Virus record (IMG/VR): IMGVR_UViG_3300044637_001164
Location: 1 to 37,603 of that record
Length of the DNA: 37,603 bases
Direction: 5' to 3' (one strand)
DNA from: a virus
Under the pieces are notes generated by a model. The model was not told where the DNA came from. It saw only the letters and a program-made list of their open reading frames with translations, and ran no database searches. The position numbers and the translations under genes are program-made. Shown piece by piece: positions 34,307-36,018 of this stretch (position 1 is the stretch's first letter; each line of letters begins with the position of its first letter).

Positions 34307-34810
34307 ATGAAGACAAAAATCAACTCAGCAAAAAACATTGTTAACAAAGCGCCAAAAGTAGCGCCAAAAGTTAAGCAAGTGTTGACAATCAAGCCCACAC
34401 AAACGGAAGAGGCGAGCGAAAAAATGAGAGTCACTTTTAAACAAATGGGACTAAAAAAAGACGGGGGCGAATTAAGCGCGCAAATAGTGTTTGAAACAAG
34501 CGCCCCCGAAAATTTAGCAAAACAAGCATTGGGGCACTTCTACGCTATTATAGCGAAGTACAAAGCCGCAAATATCAAACTATTCAATTTCGCTTATCCT
34601 ATCTATTTAATAATTGAAAAAGACGGGCAAAAAATAGACTTGAGCGGCTTGCTAAGTACCGAGTACTTAGGTTTGACGCAAGGACTAAAACTAACTTGGA
34701 ATAACGAAGGATTGAAAAAGTTTGGGCGCAATGTTAGAATAGCAATTGATGCAGTGAACGAGGACAGAATGAGAATAGTTGAGAATGAGTATATTGTATT
34801 AAGCAAATAG
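34307..34810 (+). CDS. First rightward gene: protein of unknown function with basic N-terminal tail
   Basis: The 167-residue protein has a Lys/Pro/Val-rich basic tail (residues 1-30, MKTKINSAKNIVNKAPKVAP), then an alpha/beta domain (40-167) with QIVFETSAPENLAKQALGHF and LFNFAYPIYLIIEKDGQKI. The tail may bind nucleic acid. There is no Shine-Dalgarno site; the start context is ACAGCCATGA, repeated at the 198-residue gene further right. Its leader contains the tRNA-like element, and its TAG stop shares its last base with the hammerhead ribozyme stem. It is probably the earliest gene of this arm. Family not recognised. Confidence 0.75.
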   Translation: MKTKINSAKNIVNKAPKVAPKVKQVLTIKPTQTEEASEKMRVTFKQMGLKKDGGELSAQIVFETSAPENLAKQALGHFYAIIAKYKAANIKLFNFAYPIYLIIEKDGQKIDLSGLLSTEYLGLTQGLKLTWNNEGLKKFGRNVRIAIDAVNEDRMRIVENEYIVLSK

Positions 34811-34869
34811 GTTTACTGATGAGTCTTTAATAGACGAAACGTGAGGGCGCAAGTCCTCACGTATAAACC
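34810..34869 (+). ncRNA. Type I hammerhead self-cleaving ribozyme
   Basis: All core elements are present in order. Stem I: GGTTTA (34810-34815) with TAAACC (34864-34869), 6 bp. Core CTGATGA (34816-34822). Stem II: GTCT (34823-34826), loop TTAAT, AGAC (34832-34835). Core GAA (34836-34838) with A15.1 at 34839. Stem III: ACGTGAGG (34839-34846) with CCTCACGT (34855-34862), 8 bp, plus G-U and C-G pairs capped by a GCAA tetraloop. The cleavage triplet is GTA (34861-34863), so cutting is expected between 34863 and 34864. The open ends are in stem I, which defines type I. It lies between gene 34307-34810 and gene 34888-35073. Confidence 0.92.
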
Positions 34870-34887
34870 AATTAATTACTATCATTC

Positions 34888-35073
34888 ATGACGTACGAAG
34901 TAAAATTATTCAACGTGAGCGGCAATCATTGCTTTACTCACAAATGCGACGCTGAGAGTCAATATATAGCCGTAAACGAGGCGCAAAAATACGCGCGCGA
35001 AAACGGTATAAGCTATGCAAGCGCAAAGGCTAATGTTAAACGTTTAAAATTAAAAACCAATGGCAAAATATAA
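34888..35073 (+). CDS. Small protein of unknown function, 61 aa
   Basis: The protein is basic with a beta-like N-terminus (MTYEVKLFNVSGNHCFTHKC) and a helical C-terminal half (AQKYARENGISYASAKANVK). After hammerhead cleavage its messenger would begin with a 5'-hydroxyl about 24 nt before the ATG. It overlaps the next gene by 14 nt. No family recognised. Confidence 0.65.
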   Translation: MTYEVKLFNVSGNHCFTHKCDAESQYIAVNEAQKYARENGISYASAKANVKRLKLKTNGKI

Positions 35074-35311
35074 CTACAAAAAACTAATGAGTCATAACCC
35101 GACGGAGTACGGGCGAATGACAAATAAACTAGGGCAAAACATTGTATTTTTAGAGCACCCAATAAAAGGCGATGAGAGTTTTGTTATATGCGCGTGCCCT
35201 GAATTAGAGCTAGCCGCAGATAGCGACTTTTTTGAGCTCGACGATATGCTGCAGGAGCACGGAGAATACGCGCCAGCATTTGTGAACGGAGAATTTCAAC
35301 ACGGAGTATAA
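35060..35311 (+). CDS. Small acidic protein of unknown function, 83 aa
   Basis: The first half is basic (MAKYNYKKLMSHNPTEYGRM), the second acidic with LELAADSDFFELDDMLQEHGE. It may be a small host-interaction protein. AAACCA stands directly before the ATG. It overlaps the previous gene by 14 nt in another frame, which supports coupled translation. Confidence 0.65.
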   Translation: MAKYNYKKLMSHNPTEYGRMTNKLGQNIVFLEHPIKGDESFVICACPELELAADSDFFELDDMLQEHGEYAPAFVNGEFQHGV

Positions 35312-35649: not shown

Positions 35650-36018
35650 ATGAAAACAAAATACCTTACATTCTCTGAGCAAATAATCTTAGAGAGCATA
35701 GACTTGGACGGCTACGACGTGAGCGCCAACACCGACTTAGAAAAAATAAACGAAGTGTATGAAATATTTAAGAGCGAGTACGGATACATGATTGAAAGAA
35801 TAGGAGAGCGCAAAGCCTTTGAAGAATGGTTGCAAGGCTTGCCGTCCGCATTAAGCGTGCCGTTTTACAACTACAGAATATTGGAGTTGGCGTATGAGCG
35901 AAAAGCAATAACGACGTATAAGAATGAGCGCATGACAGAACATACAGAAAACAATTTTCTGAATCACTATTGGACTAGATTAGCTCACGCATTTTTTACA
36001 CTAAAAGAAAACCTATGA
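35650..36018 (+). CDS. Protein of unknown function, 122 aa
   Basis: An all-helical, charged protein (KYLTFSEQIILESIDLDGYD, EIFKSEYGYMIERIGERK, NFLNHYWTRLAHAFFTLKEN). AAACCA precedes the ATG by three bases. The stop TGA overlaps the start of the next gene by four bases (ATGA). No family recognised. Confidence 0.66.
   Translation: MKTKYLTFSEQIILESIDLDGYDVSANTDLEKINEVYEIFKSEYGYMIERIGERKAFEEWLQGLPSALSVPFYNYRILELAYERKAITTYKNERMTEHTENNFLNHYWTRLAHAFFTLKENL

Follow-up and report, generated by a model that had tools for sequence, protein, structure and literature searches.

A compact subfamily of type I hammerhead ribozymes is found at gene ends in phages, and one complete member lies between the first two genes of the rightward early block in the window, the whole 37,603-nucleotide stretch of viral DNA that was analysed (IMG/VR record IMGVR_UViG_3300044637_001164). 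We consider it probable that this ribozyme acts constitutively and co-transcriptionally, cutting the early polycistronic RNA so that the first gene is separated from those that follow it. The first messenger would then carry the ribozyme hairpins directly behind its own stop codon and end in a 2',3'-cyclic phosphate, the downstream messenger would have a 5'-hydroxyl end and a leader of 24 nt and retain its start codon, and the two RNA parts would decay and be translated independently. The structure, the family, its covariation, the intergenic placement, the repeated use and the fact that ribozymes of unrelated classes occupy such places too can be read from sequence; from these we infer activity in the cell and a benefit, namely that each piece has its own stability and is translated separately.

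A type I hammerhead between two early genes

The ribozyme occupies positions 34810-34869 of the + strand, on which all window features described here lie. Stem I is formed by the 5' strand GGUUUA (GGTTTA in the DNA, 34810-34815) and the 3' strand UAAACC (TAAACC, 34864-34869), the latter being the strand with which the downstream messenger would begin once the RNA is cut. The core CUGAUGA (CTGATGA, 34816-34822) leads into stem II, GUCU/AGAC closed by the loop UUAAU (GTCT-TTAAT-AGAC, 34823-34835), followed by the core GAA (34836-34838) and stem III, ACGTGAGGGC-GCAA-GTCCTCACGT (34839-34862), which has ten base pairs including one G-U, a GCAA loop and, as pair 34839-34862, the A15.1-U16.1 pair. 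H17 is an A at 34863, and from this core position cleavage is predicted 3' of A34863, with a 2',3'-cyclic phosphate at A34863 and a 5'-hydroxyl at 34864. The hammerhead features are thus all present (CUGANGA, GAA, A15.1-U16.1 and H17, and three stems with covariation), the sequence read directly giving an intact core and stems I, II and III of 6, 4 and 10 bp, and the fold assigns the ribozyme to type I, stem I being open-ended and stems II and III closed by loops. The minimum-energy fold of positions 34800-34880 is exactly the hammerhead (-24.8 kcal/mol, z = -4.85), and none of 200 shuffles was as stable.

The original prediction had held chance to be negligible, which is correct once the stems are counted (a structure-aware scan had no match in 818 kb of reversed sequence) and incorrect for the core alone: the bare core-motif pattern matched at least once in 61 of 100 shuffles, so the significance rests on the stems. 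A covariance model built from 18 relatives with the window left out (R2) scored the ribozyme at 60.0 bits (E = 2.1e-12, 135 kb searched), in agreement with the position, core, stems and GCAA loop that had been predicted from the letters and that sequence and fold bear out. The full model (R1) gave 61.5 bits and detected this single copy in the window, the runner-up scoring 11.7 bits. The search with Infernal and Rfam that had been proposed as a check came out differently from our held-out model: in an Rfam 15 scan of the window no family reached its gathering score, and there is hence no Rfam ribozyme match, the best sub-threshold scores being 25.6 bits for RAGATH-1-hammerhead (cut-off 56.3) and 21.9 bits for Hammerhead_3 (cut-off 48.5). 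Although the lack of a covariance-model match had been named beforehand as a refuting result, we rejected the Rfam miss as a refutation because the relatives that we examined fail the cut-offs too, none of those in the scanned loci reaching that of RF00163, RF00008 or RF03152; the miss arises because Rfam does not cover the subfamily and not because the ribozyme is absent. The subfamily is invisible to a standard Rfam scan at the curated cut-offs.

Two other candidates for the element were discarded: an intrinsic terminator, as stem III was not flagged by a terminator scan and no T tract follows it, and a tRNA-linked theta or HDV-like ribozyme, given the lack of an Rfam ribozyme match and of a tRNA in the window. 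Elsewhere, tRNA genes occur on ribozyme-bearing contigs (L017 / L086, 710-783; L065, 1313-1391), at a distance of some 0.8-1.1 kb.

A compact subfamily with a fixed stem I

Pattern scans and phage records yielded 263 unique relatives at 163 loci. A first pattern, TTACTGATGAG..CGAAAC..GTHTAA, matched 71 viral contigs, nearly all with a 6-bp stem I, a stem II and a stem III. A second pattern with a different inner stem I matched at least 120 stretches, and in a test set of 80 of those loci 96 of 97 matches have at least four stem I pairs beyond the 2 bp in the pattern, with stem I measuring exactly 6 bp in 90 of the 97. One locus with stems of 5, 1 and 2 bp (L034) had no match to R1 and was set aside as a chance pattern match. 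In two hammerheads on contig L081 (1426-1487 and 2121-2196) a single additional U separates CUGANGA from stem II, an insertion in the core that may affect their activity. The pattern matched only four times in 84,980 bacterial and archaeal genomes, and among the part of these candidates that was scored with R1 none gave a score.

The geometry of the subfamily is narrow. Stem I is exactly 6 bp in 239 of the 263 relatives, and in the 257 relatives whose stem I has at least 6 bp it is preceded by A (237), begins with G (237) and is followed by two positions that are A in 226 and 213, respectively; a seventh pair is avoided, occurring in 18 of the 257 compared to the 36% expected from flank composition. 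Stem II has 4-5 bp and a UNANU loop across the family, the loop reading U (217), N, A (201), N, U (173) in the 219 relatives with a 13-nt stem II. The window ribozyme fits every family position, with its 6-bp stem I, the A before it and AA after it, a UUAAU loop that conforms to UNANU, and a stop codon within -9 to +10 of stem I. Since the length of stem I is fixed and its flanks are conserved, the family columns suggest that the ends of stem I, with the flanking A residues, take over the role of the classical loop I and touch the UNANU loop, and the AA at 34870-34871 is the putative tertiary partner of loop II in the window.

The UUAAU and AUUAA segments of the window hinted at a pseudoknot between loop II and a flank, which we rejected: in the 219 relatives the mean longest Watson-Crick complementarity between loop II and either flank was not above that of re-paired controls, and no covariation was seen. 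The contact between stem I and loop II would thus be non-canonical. Within the stems, both partners vary among 42 aligned members (alignment A1) in 11 of the 13 pairs counted, and all three stems covary, a count inflated by the selection of the A1 rows for pairing, a bias from which the held-out set and the Pelagibacter phage comparison described below are free.

Ribozymes abut stop codons at gene junctions

The ribozyme lies where the original prediction had put it, between two co-directional early genes and thus in a place suited to separating their messengers, as the ORF list and the sequence confirm. Upstream is a 167-aa gene (34307-34810), the first of the rightward early block, with no Pfam or PHROG match; downstream are a 61-aa gene (34888-35073), whose start lies 24 nt after the predicted cleavage site, and an 83-aa gene (35060-35311) assigned to PHROG 11770 by the family scan. 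The conserved A (34809) and the G that opens stem I (34810) both belong to the TAG stop of the 167-aa gene (34808-34810), as had been noticed before for the G. This placement is a feature of the whole family. The upstream sequence was long enough for 250 ribozymes; 234 of them come after an ORF of 40 aa or more with a stop ending between -60 and +24 of stem I, and in 201 of these 234 it ends within -9 to +10, compared to about 6% of random positions. On the other side, starts were found for 225 of 251 ribozymes, 193 of them 14-40 nt after the cleavage site (median 25 nt).

The original prediction had also proposed that termination of translation could switch the ribozyme, a ribosome at the stop covering stem I and the core. 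On this reading the ribosome would delay cleavage, so that cutting would report upstream translation. Given the usual ribosome footprint, a terminating ribosome sterically overlaps the hammerhead core, and the overlapping or abutting of upstream stop and ribozyme across the family favours such a switch, as does the use of the core UGA itself as the upstream stop in 39 relatives (the window ribozyme not being one of them). However, the register between stop and ribozyme is not fixed and varies from -9 to +23, from before stem I through the core UGA into loop II, and the type II hammerheads of Streptomyces phage R4 likewise closely follow stops. Compact packing also suffices to explain the overlap, which looks like just that: the other junctions of the window operon measure at most 17 nt or overlap, so that the 77-nt gap is filled by the ribozyme and an ordinary leader. 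Cleavage, moreover, leaves the start region of the gene downstream in place, which gives a switch no obvious regulatory output. With no fixed register, an overlap that packing explains and the parallel in R4, the switch is unsupported as a specific mechanism and we regard it as unlikely; we are equally doubtful of its generalization, in which ribosomes finishing genes and stop-fused ribozymes compete for the same bases across many phage lineages and messenger cutting is timed by the level of translation. Translation could still delay cleavage by a ribozyme that is otherwise constitutive.

Arrays of hammerhead and Pistol ribozymes

Several phage contigs carry multiple hammerheads, with nine copies in 4.3 kb on G050, six each on G027 and G075 and five each on G035 and G001, and in all 56 multi-copy loci the copies lie on one strand. 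In two contigs hammerheads are interleaved with Pistol ribozymes in one early gene block, six with four in one (L084, G027:1-6500) and five with three in the other (L087, G035:29000-42000). Pistol ribozymes were present in only these 2 of 45 contigs tested and lie close to stops where an ORF was found. The occurrence of different ribozyme folds in equivalent places argues that cleavage, and not a specific fold, is selected, and the phages with nine copies or with both classes suggest that whole early operons cut themselves into single-gene messengers.

Dense arrays that flank single genes could instead free RNAs that a ligase such as RtcB circularizes or re-ligates, and the 5'-hydroxyl and 2',3'-cyclic phosphate ends left by such ribozymes fit RtcB. 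We give this reading hardly any credence: RtcB was found in 0 of 45 ribozyme-bearing phage contigs, which are partial, versus 9 of 14 control genomes (a host ligase being possible), and the window carries one copy only. Circular or spliced products were furthermore sought and not found by Perreault 2011 (PMC3088659).

Compensatory changes at one junction and turnover among relatives

Cultured phages also carry the subfamily, among them Flavobacterium elemo phages, Pelagibacter phages such as HTVC019P and Eistla, and Methylophilales phage MEP301. In five Pelagibacter phages (Jormungand, HTVC019P, HTVC131P, HTVC022P and HTVC304P) the ribozyme sits in the same gap, with a MarR gene and an integrase downstream. 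Stem I there is GCAAAA/UUUUGC in two phages and GUUGUA/UACAAC in three, which amounts to four compensatory pairs, and the ribozyme outside stem I is nearly unchanged. Compensatory changes in related phages, to which the original prediction had looked for support, are therefore found at this syntenic gap; for the window's own gap the comparison yielded nothing, as no close relative spans it. The elemo phages share the layout of the window phage, with structural and early genes on opposite strands and the ribozyme in the early block, and in them an unannotated 21-codon frame ends in a TAG exactly on stem I. An annotated hypothetical gene lies antisense over the elemo ribozyme (L215, 5962-6069, - strand; L216, 5962-6069, - strand) and is probably spurious.

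The relatives of the window phage itself are distant or incomplete. Its portal protein has 20-25% identity to portals of crAss-like and Flavobacterium phages, and portal relatives at 22-26% occur in 7 of 41 contigs tested. The 167-aa upstream gene has no relative among the viral contigs searched, a search with positions 35650-36018 gave none either, and two contigs related through the terminase, one near-identical (L094) and one at 42% (L095), stop short of the gap. The 83-aa gene of the window is shared by L081 and L083, each of which has a ribozyme directly after that gene, the window ribozyme sitting two genes earlier than these counterparts; no hammerhead was found in L077-L080 and L082, which share the gene as well, and the ribozyme is thus dispensable or replaceable. 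Because position and presence differ among the contigs with the 83-aa gene, the element must be gained, lost or moved among junctions. On the contig of L007 (G013, 87057-89189) the portal frame contains 12 in-frame TAG codons, pointing to reassignment of TAG.

Such variation in position, together with relatives that lack the ribozyme and the many copies in others, is what a selfish or passively spreading element of no benefit to the phage would leave. Against this, the compensatory change at the syntenic gap and the near-invariant non-core positions show selection for function, placement is confined to gene junctions and to the coding strand, neither shared flanking sequence nor a mobile gene was seen, and the Pelagibacter phages already suggest persistence at one junction over long divergence. 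We therefore deem a purely selfish element very unlikely and favour messenger cutting.

Relation to known ribozymes

The hammerhead class, type I, the phage location, arrays and the idea of processing are already known. Clustered hammerheads of types I, II and III in phages and prophages were described by Perreault 2011 (PMC3088659), who observed cleavage of polycistronic RNA by these ribozymes both in vitro and in E. coli and suggested a role in messenger processing; the core, the intergenic position, the multiple copies flanking single genes and the proposed cutting of polycistronic RNA are all as here, and some of our metagenomic members may already be among the alignments of that study. 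Unlike here, stop codons are mentioned nowhere in that paper and pseudoknots are stressed, whereas no such covariation is found in the present family. Apparently new are the compact subfamily, in which stem I and its flanks are fixed, the systematic fusion to stop codons, the mixed hammerhead and Pistol arrays and the presence in cultured marine phages, and in the main texts of the open-access literature we found no paper describing any of these four. The role of phage hammerheads, a question since 2011, becomes directly testable with a large gene-end family that occurs in laboratory-grown phages and is absent from Rfam 15 at the cut-offs.

Among the Rfam families, Hammerhead_1 (RF00163) shares the type I order, the core and the three stems, but the best relative reaches 27.4 bits versus a cut-off of 34, and the subfamily differs in its fixed 6-bp open stem I without loop I. 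RAGATH-1-hammerhead (RF03152) is the best sub-threshold match, from the score of the window ribozyme up to 31.3 bits, and has a similarly short, A/U-rich inner stem I; even the highest of these scores is below its cut-off, and its model has an additional hairpin upstream and a short stem II closed by a different loop. Pistol (RF02679) sits at equivalent junctions in phages that also carry the subfamily but has a different fold. Hammerhead_II (RF02276) occurs seven times in Streptomyces phage R4, at junctions of early genes or close to them, in a circularly permuted type II architecture. Some of these type II hammerheads (L221; NC_019414.1, 45254-51071, reverse complement) lie inside annotated genes, whose starts may be annotated too early.
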